NCBI GenBank assembly: GCA_031275825.1
Contig: JAISOH010000072.1
Span: 1-40,773, forward strand
Source: Prevotellaceae bacterium
GTDB lineage: Bacteria > Bacteroidota > Bacteroidia > Bacteroidales > UBA932
DNA: 40,773 nt
Direction of reading: 5' to 3'
The notes beneath the pieces were generated by a model. That model had not been told where the DNA came from and made no database searches. It worked only from the letters and a program-made list of their open reading frames with translations. The position numbers and the translations under genes are program-made. Positions 33,300-40,528 of the stretch are shown in pieces (within the stretch, counting starts at the first letter, position 1; each line of letters opens with the position of its first letter).

Positions 33300-34094
33300 T
33301 TAAACAGCTATGGGAGCTTTTATTGCCGGATGGCAGTTGTAATTTATCAGTTCAAAATCTTCATATTTGAAGTCAAAAACAGATTTTACGTTTTGATTAA
33401 TTTTCATTTGAGGAAGTTCAAACGGTTTGCGTAACAACTGGGTTTTTGCCTGTTCGATATGATTGAGATAAACATGCGTATCGCCGAGAGAATGAATAAA
33501 TTCGCCGGCTTGCAGATTGCAAACCCGAGCCATCATCATTGTCAGCAAAGCGTATGAAGCAATATTAAAAGGCACGCCCAAAAACACATCGGCGCTGCGC
33601 TGGTAAAGCTGGCACGAAAGTTTGCCGTTTGCAACATAAAACTGAAATAACACATGACATGGAGGCAAAGCCATATTATCCAAATCGCCTGCGTTCCACG
33701 CACAAACAATATGCCGCCGCGAGTCGGGATTGTTTTTTATTGAATTTACCGTATTGTTTATCTGGTCAATATGTTTACCATCGGCATTTTGCCACGAACG
33801 CCACTGATAACCGTAAACATGTCCCAAATCGCCGTTTGCGTCAGCCCATTCATCCCAAATTGTAACATTATTGTCGTTCAGAAATTTTATATTGGTATCG
33901 CCTTTCAAAAACCATAGAAGTTCGTAAATGATAGATTTAAGATGAATTTTTTTTGTAGTAACAAGCGGAAAACCATTGTTCAAATCAAACCGCATTTGAT
34001 AACCAAAAATACTCAAAGTGCCGACGCCTGTACGGTCGTGTTTTTCAATGCCTTCGCTTAAAATTTTATTAAGTAAGTCAAGATATGCTTTCAT
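33300..34094 (-). CDS. thyA: Thymidylate synthase
   Basis: [79 protein letters not shown]. Confidence 0.98.
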
Positions 34095-34341: not shown

Positions 34342-34857
34342 ATGATAAAAAATGTTGTAATATTTATTTTAATCGTCAATTCGATTAAAATATCGGCTCA
34401 AACGGAAATACAAAAATTGTCCGACACAAGTAAATTTTTGTTTGACTTGAAACCTGCAACTCCGATTAACAATAATTTTAATCTACTGATAAATCCTTTT
34501 CCTGCAAAACTTACGGCAAATCATACCAACATTTATCATTCAATAAAGGATACATTACAGCGAGATTCGTTGAACATGCCGCATGAGCAAAAAATCAATC
34601 CCGAACTGTTGTTTGTTCGCAGCGCTTATTTTTCTCCCGATTCAAAATTATTCAAATTCAAAAAACAAAGTTTCGGTTTGTTATCAGATGAAGAATTAGG
34701 AAAAAAACTTTCGTTGGAAATAGTAAAAACATATAAAGAAAAATATGGAAACGTTTCCTCTGGAAGACGTTCCGGCGGCATCAGCATTGGCATACCAACC
34801 AAAGAAGAGCGAATGAAAGAAAGAGCCGAAAAACGGAAAAAGGCTTATGTATATTGA
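34342..34857 (+). CDS. Secreted hypothetical protein
   Basis: N-terminal signal peptide ending ISAQ; good upstream promoter-like box; no family recognised. Confidence 0.6.
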   Translation: MIKNVVIFILIVNSIKISAQTEIQKLSDTSKFLFDLKPATPINNNFNLLINPFPAKLTANHTNIYHSIKDTLQRDSLNMPHEQKINPELLFVRSAYFSPDSKLFKFKKQSFGLLSDEELGKKLSLEIVKTYKEKYGNVSSGRRSGGISIGIPTKEERMKERAEKRKKAYVY

Positions 34858-34913
34858 CAGTAAACGCCGAAATATCTTTTGCACATCATTATTTTTTGAC
34901 TTTATCTTAATAG

Positions 34914-34947
34914 AGCAGGCAGTTGAATTTTCATTTAACTGCCTGCT
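34914..34947. terminator. Hairpin between the 171-aa ORF and the tRNA fragment
   Basis: agcaggcagtt (34914-34924) / aactgcctgct (34937-34947). Confidence 0.6.
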
Positions 34948-34956
34948 TATATTTTG

Positions 34957-35001
34957 TGGGCCCAGTAGGGCTTGAACCTACGACCCCCTGATTATGAGTC
35001 A
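34957..35001 (-). pseudogene. 3' fragment of elongator tRNA-Met(CAT): attachment-site scar
   Basis: Minus strand tgactCATaatcagggggtcGTAGGttcaagcCCTACtgggccca: half anticodon stem, CAT anticodon loop, variable loop, perfect T arm, acceptor 3' strand. No D-arm or 5' acceptor follows (taattttattgcc...). Confidence 0.8.
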
Positions 35002-35124
35002 TTAATTTTATTGCCAACAATATATTGTAAATCAATATATTATATATTGCATATTTTTTGTCCGTAAAAATATAGTAAAAAAATTATTTATTTTTACTAA
35101 AAAACAAATTCAATCCATCTTCAA

Positions 35125-35394
35125 TTATTTTTGATTTTGAGATATTGTTCTTATTTCTTCTAAAAATTTTTCAATTCCCGCTATTATTTTTTGCTTTTGT
35201 TCGGCAGAAAAACAACTGGGATTGCCATTGGCATTTCTACCTGCCAATTTGCGCATTGTATTTGAAGTATAGCGTATTGCGCAATAATCAGGAAAAAAAC
35301 TGCGGCATTTCAGGTATTTAATTTTTTGGGTAAATTCGTCTATTTCTGGTTTTTTCATATTCATAAATTTTATAAGCCCTATGCCATTCCGCAA
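35125..35394 (-). CDS. Small hypothetical protein (start may be the internal MNMKKPEI)
   Basis: ORF in operon orientation; KxxxxxFLEEIRTISQNQK C-terminus; no family recognised. Confidence 0.5.
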   Translation of the reverse strand: MRNGIGLIKFMNMKKPEIDEFTQKIKYLKCRSFFPDYCAIRYTSNTMRKLAGRNANGNPSCFSAEQKQKIIAGIEKFLEEIRTISQNQK

Positions 35395-35593
35395 GGCGTT
35401 TCATTAATTTTTCTATTCTGTCGGCATTACCTTTGTAATGCTCATTGAACGAGTCTATCATATCAACGATTTCAAACCTGCCATTTTCTCTCACTTTTGC
35501 TAAAAATCGAGGCTTGCGCGTATGTAAAATATACACGCCATCGAGGTCTACCATTTTGTTTTCGGCAATTAAAAACGCAGGATAATCAGCCAT
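35318..35593 (-). CDS. Small hypothetical protein (MADYPAFLIAENKMVDLDGVY...)
   Basis: Start moved to MADYP at 35593, overlapping the IbrB-like stop by 8 bp (translational coupling). Confidence 0.6.
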   Translation of the reverse strand: MADYPAFLIAENKMVDLDGVYILHTRKPRFLAKVRENGRFEIVDMIDSFNEHYKGNADRIEKLMKRLAEWHRAYKIYEYEKTRNRRIYPKN

Positions 35594-36245
35594 TTTCCAC
35601 CTCCCATGCCTGCGAAAATTCATTATCGATAAACAGCGAAGCAATGCCTGTTAACTGTTTCAGCCGCAATATTTCGTCTGTATCCATACCTATATGTTTT
35701 TTTATCCATGTTTCCTTGCGACCGAGCAGTATCAGTTCTTTTACTATATTGCTCATCAAATCAATATCGTGCGAGCCGCGAGCGCGGTTGTGTCGAATTG
35801 TTGATGCCATGCGGCTGTCAAGTTCGCGGTGATCTTCGCGAATAAACGACACAGGCAAACGTCCAAAAGTGCTTGCGCTTATTTTTTTCGATTTTCGTTC
35901 CGACTGCCGACGATGAAAGCCATCAACTATTCTGATTATATCTTCTTCCGGATTGCCAACAATCGGCATTGTATAGCCATCTTCCTCTATGGAAGTAATA
36001 AGCAGCGCCATTTCGGGCGGAGCCACGCTGTTCGGATTATAATCGTTACCTTCTATTTTTTCTGATTTTTCCCATGCTACAAAATCAACCGGATGGTGTT
36101 TTAATGGGCTTACTTTGTGCAGTTCAGCGCGAACATAATTAAGTGCATCAATTTTTTCATCTACATCGGTTATTGCGCTTATCAATGCGCACAGTTCTTT
36201 AATTTTATCTTTTATATTTGCCTGATTGTTAAATAAATCTGTCAT
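35586..36245 (-). CDS. IbrB-like ParB/Srx-fold protein
   Basis: NDYNPNSVAPPEMALLITSIEEDGYTMPIV, RIVDGFHRRQ, GRLPVSFI, RMASTIRHNRARGSHDIDLM, LGRKETWIKKHIGMDTDEILRLKQLTGIASLF. Confidence 0.88.
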   Translation of the reverse strand: MTDLFNNQANIKDKIKELCALISAITDVDEKIDALNYVRAELHKVSPLKHHPVDFVAWEKSEKIEGNDYNPNSVAPPEMALLITSIEEDGYTMPIVGNPEEDIIRIVDGFHRRQSERKSKKISASTFGRLPVSFIREDHRELDSRMASTIRHNRARGSHDIDLMSNIVKELILLGRKETWIKKHIGMDTDEILRLKQLTGIASLFIDNEFSQAWEVENG

Positions 36246-37561
36246 AACATATCATTATATTTCTGTAATAATTCATTTTGTCGCAATACCTGTCGTTTTG
36301 TTATTGAGAATGAAAGCGATTGACAGGTAATATCATTCTTTAAAATGGTCATACACAATCTTTTCCATGAAAGAAAATCAGCCTTATTGTCAAGCCCCGG
36401 CAATACATCGGGAATGGATTTTGCCTTTATTACTTCTTTGTAGCCTTTACCGCGATTACTGAATGTATGTGTATTAATAAACGCATCGGGAGCCAGTTCT
36501 TCAAATAATTTAATATCATTTTCAGCGATTGGACATCCGACTTGTTGCCAGTAGCGAATAAATCTGACGAACTTTTTTGTGTAAATATCACGGGTTTCTT
36601 TTGGCAGGGTTTTTAACAGGAATTTACAGTAACTTTTCCATGTATGACCTTGCGGCAGGTCAATATGTTTTGCGCCGGTTGCCTTGCTGCCTGCATAGAT
36701 ATTGCCGAAGTTTGCGCCCGAAACTCTGTCCACAACCCTAAACCATGTTTCCGGTTCTATTATCTTAAACATATTTAATCCCGCTTTCTGTTCATCTCCA
36801 TAAGGCTCGCAAATCCGCATCTTATGAAGCGGAACGCCGGCTTTGTAGAATAAATCGTAAATCCTGTTATAAGGCTTATGAAATTTACCGTTGTATGTCC
36901 AAATATCATTCACATGCCAATCGTAAACCGGATAAAAATTTACCGTACTGTCAGATACGACTGTCGAATATATTTTACTATCATAAATTCCCTTGTCGGC
37001 TCGTGCAATCGCACGGAATCTGTTCAAACTTTCATCTGTTCTGATACCCACAAGGCAGGCGGTACTTCCGCCGCCATGAACAGCGGCATACCAGTCTCCG
37101 AACTGTTCGATAAATTCCTCAAATGTCATATTCTGTTTATAAAAATCAAACGGATTATTTTTTTCGCTGATTATAAAATTATATGCAGGCATCGGTCGCA
37201 CCCATTTATCGCGCTTGCTTTCTTCCCAGAATATCCAGTAAGGTTCATACATCGAAACCGCATTTGTTGTAAGCATCGGCAAACATACCCAATACGGCTC
37301 AATCAAATCTAAATTATCAAAAATCATTTTTTCTATAAAGTTAATCGTTCCTTTATAAAAAGCCTCTAAATCAATGAATAATATACCTATTTTCTTCTTA
37401 ATATTATTTTTACGCATATAGTCAACAACGAGATTAAATACAACCCCGCTATCCTTACCGCCTGAAAATGAAACATAAATATTTTCAAAATTTTTAAATA
37501 TATAATCTATCCTGTTGTTAGCGGCATCGTAAACATTAATATTTAAGTAATACTTTTTCAT
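36242..37561 (-). CDS. IbrA-like phosphoadenosine phosphosulfate reductase family (PP-loop, DUF3440-like) protein
   Basis: NVYDAANNRIDYIFKNFENIYVSFSGGKDSGVVFNLV PP-loop; GILFIDLEAFYKGT; IEPYWVCLPMLTTNAVSMYEPYWIFWEESKRDKWVRPMP; overlaps ibrB start by 4 bp. Confidence 0.9.
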   Translation of the reverse strand: MKKYYLNINVYDAANNRIDYIFKNFENIYVSFSGGKDSGVVFNLVVDYMRKNNIKKKIGILFIDLEAFYKGTINFIEKMIFDNLDLIEPYWVCLPMLTTNAVSMYEPYWIFWEESKRDKWVRPMPAYNFIISEKNNPFDFYKQNMTFEEFIEQFGDWYAAVHGGGSTACLVGIRTDESLNRFRAIARADKGIYDSKIYSTVVSDSTVNFYPVYDWHVNDIWTYNGKFHKPYNRIYDLFYKAGVPLHKMRICEPYGDEQKAGLNMFKIIEPETWFRVVDRVSGANFGNIYAGSKATGAKHIDLPQGHTWKSYCKFLLKTLPKETRDIYTKKFVRFIRYWQQVGCPIAENDIKLFEELAPDAFINTHTFSNRGKGYKEVIKAKSIPDVLPGLDNKADFLSWKRLCMTILKNDITCQSLSFSITKRQVLRQNELLQKYNDML

Positions 37562-37968
37562 AATATCAATTCAACCCTGTGCCATTTTGTAAATGCCTTG
37601 ATTATTTTAAATCCCGCCTTCAAATAGTGCGGCAAACATTCATTGGTACAGTCTGCTTTAATGTGCTTTATTCCATTTTTTTTACACCATTTTATACGTT
37701 CCGATATTAATTTTTTATGAATGCCTTTTTGTCTGTAATCGGGAATAACATAATCATACGTAAATTCGACATCTTTTTGTGTTTGCCGTATTGCTGAAAA
37801 TCCAGCCAAATTTTCATTATCGAAAACAATAAACCAGCAATAATTTTCGTCTGTCAAAATCGGATAACCATCAAACATTGCCACAATACTGCGATTCATT
37901 GCATACGGAGCAATGAGTTCGTATAGCCGTTTGTCTGTTCCTGATAGTTTTTGTATTTTCATTTTCAT
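37558..37968 (-). CDS. GNAT-family N-acetyltransferase
   Basis: FTYDYVIPDYRQKGIHKKLISERIKWCKKNGIKHIKADCTNECLPHYLKAGFKII; overlaps the IbrA-like start by 4 bp. Confidence 0.85.
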   Translation of the reverse strand: MKMKIQKLSGTDKRLYELIAPYAMNRSIVAMFDGYPILTDENYCWFIVFDNENLAGFSAIRQTQKDVEFTYDYVIPDYRQKGIHKKLISERIKWCKKNGIKHIKADCTNECLPHYLKAGFKIIKAFTKWHRVELIL

Positions 37969-38001: not shown

Positions 38002-39642
38002 TTATAAACTTTCGATATATTTTTTCAATTTTGTTTTGTCAAGCATAAGCCGTTTTATCTCATCTGCCAGATTGCCCTTGCGCCTCAAATTTCGCATGAT
38101 TTTATCGTCAATATTTGCTTCCGTGCGAAAATCATGTATAAACATTTTATTTCTTTGCCCCTGCCTGTCGATACGTCCGACAGACTGTTTTCTGTGAAAA
38201 TATGAAAATGAATTTGAAAAAAATACAATCCTTCGGCATACTTCCTGTAATCCATTCAGCCCTGTGCCGCCTGACTGCATTGTCGCAACAAAATATTTCT
38301 TTTTACCGCTCACGAAGTCGGCAAGTTCGGCATCGCGATCCTGCGGATTTTTGCCTGTAAAAACAGCACAGTTTTCATATCCGAAATAATCGACAATCAT
38401 TTCAATTTCAAATATATATTTACAAAAGAAAATCACCTGTTCATCAGCGGGAATATTGTTCATAAGCGAAAATTTGTTTGTTCCCAAATATTCACGCTCA
38501 TTGTCATGCCTGCAATAACCGCAGCAAATCTGCTGCATTCGAGTAAATGACTTGAATATGTCTGTTGCATAGAAATTATCGCTCTTTATCTTATCAAGCA
38601 GCCATTCCTTTTCTTCGTGATACAGTTCATATTGAATGTCATTCATTTTACATGTATGTATATAAAATTGCTTTGCCGGCAAATTTAAACATTCTTCTTT
38701 CGTGATTTGATAAGTGTAAGGTTCGAGTAAACCCATAAGGTGGTCAATATTCTTGTAACCTATAATCTCATCACCGAACATGCCGCCCATTACTAAATAT
38801 CTTTCTTCAAACTTTTTCCAGTCGCGAACTCCGATAATCAGCGGCGACAAACACGCATACTGCATATAAAGATTATGAACATTATCGGTTACAGGCGTGC
38901 CTGTCATTACAAGTTTGTAACTGGTTTTATCGCAAACCATTTTAATACGTTTCGACCGCTTGGCAGTCGGCGTTTTTATTGCATGGCTTTCGTCTATAAT
39001 GATTTGCGTTTCGCTGTCGGCGAAATTCAGAGCCTCAAAAACAGCCCTGTTGCTGCTGCTCATGCTCTCATGCCCGATTAATTTCCATTCGATTTCCTTG
39101 TGGGCGCACCACAAGTCAATTTGCGCCTGAAAGTTTTTTTTAGTCGAAACAGGCAGAAATACAAGAACTTTCTTTATTTCTTTTGCCTCGTATCGACTTA
39201 CGGCAATATCAATAGCAATCTTAGATTTGCCGGTGCCGGTATCGGCATACAGCGCCGACACTTTCATCGAGCAGCAAAACCGCAACGCATCAGCCTGATG
39301 GCGCAGACTGCTATCGTCATAAACAGGAAGAATATCATCGCGCAATCGGATATGTAGCGGCGTCTGTTTGCGTTCAAGTTCACAGTCGTTTATTATCTCG
39401 TAAAACTGTCGTTCAATTTCCGCTTTATATTCTGTTTCAAGCGAGCGGTCGCGCAGTTCGGCGCACCTCATATTTTCAATGCGCACAAAAACAGTCAGTC
39501 TGTCGTTTACAACTTCAAACCATGCAACAGTTGTAATATCTCTGTTATTTTGCCCGAATTTAAAATATAACCGCTCGACTTTGTCGGTTTTAAAAAGGCG
39601 AGAATATTTAATCCTCGCCTGCAATTTATCAAGCTGATTCAT
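38002..39642 (-). CDS. SNF2/DEAD-like helicase (SWI2/SNF2 ATPase)
   Basis: SALYADTGTGKSKIAIDIA (Walker A), IIIDESHAIKTPTAKRSKR (DESH), LVMTGTPVTDNVHNLY, SVGRIDRQGQRNKMFIHDF (motif VI). Confidence 0.92.
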   Translation of the reverse strand: MNQLDKLQARIKYSRLFKTDKVERLYFKFGQNNRDITTVAWFEVVNDRLTVFVRIENMRCAELRDRSLETEYKAEIERQFYEIINDCELERKQTPLHIRLRDDILPVYDDSSLRHQADALRFCCSMKVSALYADTGTGKSKIAIDIAVSRYEAKEIKKVLVFLPVSTKKNFQAQIDLWCAHKEIEWKLIGHESMSSSNRAVFEALNFADSETQIIIDESHAIKTPTAKRSKRIKMVCDKTSYKLVMTGTPVTDNVHNLYMQYACLSPLIIGVRDWKKFEERYLVMGGMFGDEIIGYKNIDHLMGLLEPYTYQITKEECLNLPAKQFYIHTCKMNDIQYELYHEEKEWLLDKIKSDNFYATDIFKSFTRMQQICCGYCRHDNEREYLGTNKFSLMNNIPADEQVIFFCKYIFEIEMIVDYFGYENCAVFTGKNPQDRDAELADFVSGKKKYFVATMQSGGTGLNGLQEVCRRIVFFSNSFSYFHRKQSVGRIDRQGQRNKMFIHDFRTEANIDDKIMRNLRRKGNLADEIKRLMLDKTKLKKYIESL

Positions 39643-39644
39643 CC

Positions 39645-40220
39645 TTATAATTTTAATATGTCTATTATTTTATTTTCATCAAGCAAATCGTAGAATGATG
39701 ATTTACCTGCTTCAATAATATTAGGAAAATCGCCTGCTATTGGCGTATTATCGTCATCTATAAAAGTACCGACAAAACCGATTTTGCCGCCAAAATCGTA
39801 CACTCTAACGCCAAGTTCGCCGCTAAATTTCATTGATAATAATACAAAAAACACTTCTTCGGGCTTCAAAAAATCATACTGCGGATATTTTTCATAAAAA
39901 TTTATAATCGCATCTATACGTAATATAATTGCAGAATAAAACGAATGATTTTTGGGTATCATTTTTATTATGTTCTCGCGCGTTTTCTGCTGATTTGCCT
40001 GCTTCACTTCGCAATTTTTACAGGATATTTCGCCTGTGCTTCCAAAGCAATTAAGCATTATTTCGCGAACATATTCCAGCATACTGTCATCAAACCAGAA
40101 TGCGTTATCTTTCCATATTCCGCGCAAATTGCGAGCTTTGGATATGAACTGCGAATGATAAGGCGATGTTACTTTCACCTTGTCATCTATAATTTCAAGT
40201 TTAATTTCCTTATTTTTCAT
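39645..40220 (-). CDS. HARP-like domain protein, coupled to the SNF2 gene
   Basis: VTSPYHSQFISKARNLRGIWKDNAFWFDDSMLEYVREIMLNCFG resembles the HARP-type module at the N-terminus of SMARCAL1-like SNF2 proteins; 2 bp gap to the SNF2 ORF. Confidence 0.5.
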   Translation of the reverse strand: MKNKEIKLEIIDDKVKVTSPYHSQFISKARNLRGIWKDNAFWFDDSMLEYVREIMLNCFGSTGEISCKNCEVKQANQQKTRENIIKMIPKNHSFYSAIILRIDAIINFYEKYPQYDFLKPEEVFFVLLSMKFSGELGVRVYDFGGKIGFVGTFIDDDNTPIAGDFPNIIEAGKSSFYDLLDENKIIDILKL

Positions 40221-40231
40221 AATTTAAAATT

Positions 40232-40468
40232 TTAATAATTAAACCATTTTACTTTTTTTGAAGAATACTGTAATTTACAGTCGTTTTTTTCAAGAATAAA
40301 AGCCGCAATCCAAACCGCCTGTGATTTTTGCGGATCGTAATCGTATCCAAATACCATTGACTTGGGAATAATCGCAGTTGAGCCATCGTAGGCTGCTGCC
40401 TTGTAAGTTTTGTCCGTGTAATTTGTAAGACTTTCAAGCCTTACCGAGTAACATTTAATTTTTTTCAT
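40232..40468 (-). CDS. Small hypothetical protein (MKKIKCYSVRLESLTNYTDKTYKAAAYDGSTAIIPKSMVFGYDYD...)
   Basis: ORF directly upstream of the HARP-like gene, with a good promoter upstream. Confidence 0.65.
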   Translation of the reverse strand: MKKIKCYSVRLESLTNYTDKTYKAAAYDGSTAIIPKSMVFGYDYDPQKSQAVWIAAFILEKNDCKLQYSSKKVKWFNY

Positions 40469-40528
40469 ATTTTTTTGCCTGTTTTTAGTCTGCTGGCTCC
40501 GCAGGATTTAAATTAATAAAAATATCTA

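Follow-up and report, generated by a model that had tools for sequence, protein, structure and literature searches.

The window analysed here, a stretch of 40,773 nucleotides, is the entire contig C170 of a 2.46-Mb, 202-contig Prevotellaceae genome (G000). Towards its right end lie, in order, the host gene thyA, a gene for a 171-aa protein, a hairpin, the 3' half of a tRNA-Met(CAT) gene, the arm of an integrated element and a run of phage genes, all of the latter on the minus strand (Table 1). The initial annotation had placed host genes to the left of the tRNA fragment and accessory genes to its right, and this division holds, with thyA and the 171-aa gene kept in congeners and phage genes on the right. 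Genes beyond this left flank vary between species.

Table 1. Features around the displaced tRNA-Met half, in window coordinates
Feature	Position	Strand	Evidence
thyA, host thymidylate synthase, conserved in the genus	33300..34094	-	Pfam Thymidylat_synt E 2e-127; 86-92% identical in congeners
Last host gene before the element, 171 aa, paired with thyA in congeners	34342..34857	+	matches 10/10 congeners, 0/30 other relatives
Native tRNA-Met 3' hairpin (terminator), left with the displaced half	34913..34948	.	hairpin family at intact tRNA-Met 3' ends in five congeners and at the G003 fragment
Displaced 3' half of tRNA-Met(CAT), host part of attL	34957..35001	-	44/44 identity with G000:C71:222-297; break by alignment with intact sites
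Element arm of attL, presumed integrase/accessory protein binding arm	35002..35124	.	homologous to G003 attL arm
CGTAAAAATATAGTAAA, direct repeat, candidate arm-type site	35063..35079	+	17-bp exact match to C71:109-125, 0/500 shuffles
Small phage gene	35125..35394	-	homologue in the corresponding position in sister prophages L126, L127, L128
Small phage gene	35318..35644	-	phrog_36815, weak
Phage ParB-like protein (IbrB-like)	35586..36245	-	phrog_2159 E 3.5e-65
Phage PAPS-reductase-like, DUF3440 (IbrA-like)	36242..37561	-	DUF3440 E 9e-51; phrog_2302 E 4e-105; 85-87% identical in sister genomes
GNAT acetyltransferase	37558..37968	-	PF00583 E 4.7e-10
Phage SNF2-type DNA helicase	38002..39642	-	PF00176 E 1.4e-18; phrog_62 E 2e-87
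Phage protein	39645..40220	-	phrog_18108 E 6e-12
Phage protein	40232..40471	-	phrog_5809 E 2.9e-26

On the minus strand, the intergenic segment 34957-35001, which lies outside coding sequence, comprises the acceptor strand, T arm, variable region and anticodon loop of the tRNA together with three bases of the 5' anticodon stem. Of these bases, 44 (34958-35001; or 45 when the discriminator base at 34957 is counted) match without a difference the 3' half of an intact tRNA-Met(CAT) gene, and this 44-bp pattern occurs twice in G000, once in the window and once inside the intact gene on contig C71 (222-297). Because the reversed 44-bp pattern, searched as a control, gave no match, the exact match is not due to chance. 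ARAGORN found no complete tRNA in the window, and the segment is therefore a true half gene. In alignment with the intact tRNA-Met genes of four congeners (G004, G005, G006 and G008), identity stops exactly after GAGTCA, beyond the 7-nt loop and after three of the five anticodon-stem pairs. The clean 3' half broken at the anticodon stem that the initial annotation described is thus confirmed as a real observation, with the identity ending three bases into the 5' stem. An Rfam scan of the att region returned no family at the gathering score (three weak matches were discarded), and an exact search for the attL junction in IMG/VR gave no match.

The displaced half has kept its original 3' neighbour. 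A hairpin of the type CAGGCAGT...ACTGCCTG stands 3' of the intact tRNA-Met in G004, G005, G006, G008 and G010, and the same type occupies 34913-34948 of the window. In the 1.15 Mb of the 85%-complete G000 bin that was examined for tRNAs and hairpins, the strict form of this hairpin occurs only twice, in the window and at the 3' end of a tRNA-Arg. Being rare in the genome and common to the intact sites of congeners, the hairpin indicates that the fragment still stands beside its native terminator. The two closest congeners, G002 and G007, are without it. The 171-aa gene has no tRNA within 1.5 kb beside it in any congener, so that its synteny is no test of an empty site, and the conserved 3' hairpin was used instead. 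As a side observation, the tRNA-Arg whose 3' flank bears the hairpin of the window's fragment is tRNA-Arg(ACG) on contig C97 (L265:5900-6016).

The only intact elongator tRNA-Met that was found lies on the minus strand at C71:222-297, with an element end on its 3' side and a host gene on its 5' side. This is the intact gene with the same 45 bp that the initial annotation had predicted, and it has the predicted orientation but sits on another contig. The host gene, of the HAD family, is also present in eight congeners and adjoins tRNA-Met in seven of them, which marks the 5' side of the C71 tRNA as native host surroundings. The contig ends 221 bases beyond the tRNA on the 3' side, and these bases encode LNHVDTMHKMADVYIERDWNVIDEANRKVIDYVFS and a stop, followed by a hairpin with a T-run in tRNA orientation; this hairpin was recognised in the sequence itself, as its loop of 12 nt exceeds what the terminator scan accepts. 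The intact copy therefore has a terminator that differs from the native one and is borne by the element. In particular, C71:3-113 encodes the C-terminal 36 aa of a phage-type tyrosine integrase (LNHVDTMHKMADVYIERDW...VIDYVFS), whose stop lies about 110 bp from the tRNA 3' end, and the adjacent tyrosine recombinase that had also been predicted is thereby found as a C-terminus. The tail is 56% identical (E 5e-6) to the C-terminal end of the integrase from Bacteroides phage Versailles, a protein with matches to PF13102 and PF00589. Of the catalytic set of tyrosine recombinases (R-K-H-R-H/W-Y), the part encoded on C71 is limited to the stretch with LNH and MADVY, the latter being the presumed nucleophile, and the spacing of the two in this partial protein fits the last histidine and the nucleophilic tyrosine of such enzymes. 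Another contig that breaks off within an integrase gene, C169, was weighed as the missing part and set aside: there, an efflux operon and excisionase-like genes are the neighbours, and nothing connected the contig to C71 or to the window.

Relatives with an empty site, as predicted, do exist: the tRNA-Met gene is uninterrupted in the four aligned congeners and in G010. A further congener, G003, carries a junction of the same kind. Its attL pairs a tRNA-Met 3' half of consensus sequence with the hairpin seen in the window, breaks at the same base and continues into an arm that is 77% identical over 76 bp to the window arm. The junction is independent of that in the window, and the DNA to either side of it has diverged. 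Of the two tRNA-Met sequences in G003, the displaced fragment is consensus, whereas the intact gene (L068:5990-6066, contig C152) combines a consensus 5' half with an altered 3' part. This pattern would be expected if strands were exchanged within CCTACGACCCCCTGATTATGAGTCA and the element brought in the 3' half. In that intact gene, the T loop is aberrant (ATCATGC) and the acceptor has two mismatches. As in G000, the element of G003 is divided between contigs, and the tRNA there adjoins unrelated transposase-like sequence.

Taken together, we judge, at a probability of about 90%, that 34957-35125 of the window is the attL formed when a temperate phage entered the elongator tRNA-Met gene of a Bacteroidales bacterium from the gut. 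The element is visible over at least 5.8 kb, and its two ends lie on different contigs with no contig spanning both; the ends in the window and on C71 probably belong to one and the same element. We propose that a tyrosine integrase would cross the phage attP with the tRNA-Met gene inside the anticodon arm, leaving the original tRNA 3' half and native terminator at the window site and joining the tRNA 5' half to a 3' half and a terminator that the phage would bring as replacements. An intact tRNA-Met would thereby remain at the other end of the element, on C71. The prophage is presumably functional, and with it an uncultured Bacteroidales lineage gains an att site that is mapped precisely.

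The arms at the two ends share short motifs. CGTAAAAATATAGTAAA recurs at C71:109-125, beside the integrase tail and in the same orientation, and ATATATTGTAAATCA at 35020-35034 is shared with the G003 arm, which none of 500 shuffles reached. Judged from their sequence and placement, ATATATTGTAAATCA and CGTAAAAATATAGTAAA are candidates for arm-type or accessory protein sites, and the end motifs may be arm sites of the integrase. ATATATTGTAAATCA overlaps the first of two caatatatt copies that the initial annotation had pointed out as possible integrase arm or excisionase sites. These copies are indeed present, at 35018 and 35033, yet a repeated 9-mer arose in 195 of 2000 shuffles of this AT-rich 49-bp segment, and at about 10% by chance the repeat was dropped as evidence of arm sites. 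Promoter-like sites near the arms occurred at chance level only. The arms also bear on whether the junction is an assembly chimera, in which a phage contig would have been misjoined to host DNA at a common tRNA fragment. The bin is fragmented, and the starts of C71 and of a further contig, C70, share exactly 119 bases before the first difference; since k119 is the label in contig names of sister MAGs and corresponds to the k-mer size, the two contigs look like two branches of one assembly node. The 45-bp fragment, however, is shorter than a join at k=119 requires, the same junction occurs in the independent genome G003 between diverged DNA on both sides, and the window arm carries a motif of the other element end, so that we regard a chimera as extremely improbable.

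The genes to the right of the scar point to the nature of the element. A module of helicase, GNAT, PAPS-reductase-like and ParB-like genes recurs at 73-81% DNA identity in sister MAGs labelled Prevotellaceae (L125-L128) and at 66-69% in Dysgonomonas (L131-L135). L126 (8,240 bp) has the genes of G007:C285 and thus comes from a congener. In L125 the module adjoins the small and large terminase genes, L128 carries an endolysin gene, and L127 (6302-7698) and L128 (8480-8728) end at intact tRNA-Ser(GGA) and tRNA-Ser(TGA), respectively. These two sister prophages therefore sit at tRNA-Ser genes, as opposed to tRNA-Met for the element in the window, and the PAPS-side end carries a different tyrosine integrase gene in L127 and a serine recombinase gene in L125. 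An integrative conjugative element or another non-phage genomic island might look alike over so short a stretch, as only 5.8 kb is visible and the window holds no capsid, portal or terminase gene. All annotated genes, however, belong to phage families, the sister copies of the module stand beside terminase or endolysin genes, and the same bin contains the phage-like contigs C19 and C51. We consider such an island very unlikely. The genes of the visible 5.8 kb, which is the lesser part of the element, include no relaxase or type IV secretion gene. The earlier reading as an integrative element at tRNA-Met is supported, all three of its predictions having been borne out, and the element is best called a prophage, with a tailed temperate phage as the best reading. 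The IbrB/IbrA-like pair (35586-37561) is common to Bacteroidales prophages, and DUF3440 relatives also occur in Verrucomicrobia-related and Elusimicrobiota genomes. L128 additionally encodes a reverse transcriptase (93-1343, phrog_1423), possibly of a diversity-generating retroelement.

The arrangement is a textbook one and largely ordinary. Islander lists 3919 tDNA-borne islands, 2083 of them anticodon-centred (PMC4383910), and the anticodon loop is sublocation A of Williams 2002. Like the element in the window, Islander elements have a displaced 3' tRNA half, a regenerated tRNA and a tyrosine integrase in the same orientation, whereas the Islander definition places both ends 2-200 kb apart on one replicon and the ends here lie on different contigs. 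Bacteroides phage Versailles (ON453897.1) resembles the C71 end in that its integrase gene adjoins a tRNA gene; there it is the start of the integrase gene that faces a tRNA-Arg, and on C71 it is the end that faces tRNA-Met. In IMG/VR, contig L104 has a tyrosine integrase gene with the 3' half of a tRNA-Met just upstream of it, as would be expected of the attP.

The part worth following is that the same element end stands at four tRNAs. The integrase-tail and terminator end of C71 also adjoins tRNA-Lys(CTT), tRNA-Asn and tRNA-Ile2(CAT), at 80-99% identity. Specifically, the first 221 bases of C70:1-295 (L076) are 99% the same as C71 and lead into an intact tRNA-Lys(CTT), and shorter stretches of the end (80-88%) adjoin tRNA-Asn (C60, L162; G008:C73, L159), a second CAT tRNA (C199, L163) and tRNA-Lys (G001:C33, L158). 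The C199 tRNA is taken for Ile2, as initiator and elongator Met were both found elsewhere. A fourth match to TGATTANGAGTCA in G000, on C175, lies inside a host gene and was put down to chance. Among 17 tRNAs in the 1.15 Mb, the anticodon arm TGAYTNNTAATCA is found only in Met, Lys-CTT, Asn and Ile2, exactly the four that carry the element end; a random draw of four would give this once in 2380, a figure to be read with the element-end contigs having been fetched on purpose and the TGAYTNNTAATCA motif having been read off the same four tRNAs.

This pattern also bears on where strands were exchanged. The 44-bp identity block alone does not place the exchange within the block, and a crossover at the tRNA 3' end or in the T arm would make the 45-bp half the element's and not the host's. 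The four tRNAs, however, share the TGAYTNNTAATCA anticodon arm and not their 3' ends, and the altered intact 3' part beside a consensus displaced copy in G003 limits the crossover to CCTACGACCCCCTGATTATGAGTCA; a more 3' exchange thus seems improbable, and we infer that the crossover took place in the anticodon arm.

The copies on C60 and C199 and in G001 and G008 have a truncated integrase part and lack the element body, yet the terminator hairpin is kept, and these copies are probably decayed prophages whose terminator now serves the tRNA. Such bodiless ends in the genome and genus raise the question of whether the window fragment is itself an old dead scar, left by an earlier element unrelated to the adjoining phage DNA. 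That is highly unlikely, since its 45 bp have not diverged from the intact gene, the arm runs on into intact phage genes and its 17-bp motif matches the C71 end.

Returning to the prophage reading, the occurrence of one end at four tRNAs that share TGAYTNNTAATCA suggests that a single integrase lineage spread over four tRNA genes. We incline, if only slightly, to the view that one phage integrase lineage recognises a degenerate TGAYTNNTAATCA and has colonised Met, Lys-CTT, Asn and Ile2 within one bacterial genus, keeping the integrase end and swapping only the carried tRNA 3' half, with decayed copies leaving a phage-derived terminator as the tRNA gene's own. The 3' halves may have been exchanged by recombination between related phages or, possibly, by conversion between the two tRNA halves that flank a prophage in a near-cognate tRNA. 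Target spread as such is documented in archaea, where related integrases of the pT26-2 type have spread over several tRNA genes by target switching (PMC8371274); those archaeal integrases reach up to 14 tRNA genes, while the case here is bacterial and concerns four tRNAs with one anticodon-arm sequence. In one large set of bacterial satellites, integrase clades followed a single site (PMC10111431). The four-tRNA pattern therefore offers a natural experiment in integrase target change, and in the Met and Lys copies, where the ends are nearly identical (99%) and the tRNA halves differ, the use of several anticodon arms by one integrase can be put to a direct test. It also suggests that prophages may replace the terminators of host tRNA genes and leave them behind after decay. 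Between the integrase stop and the terminator, C71:133-158 (L077) contains a palindrome, CGGTTAAATTTAACCG, and a dyad, CCGAAATATCGG, which are kept in most copies of the end.
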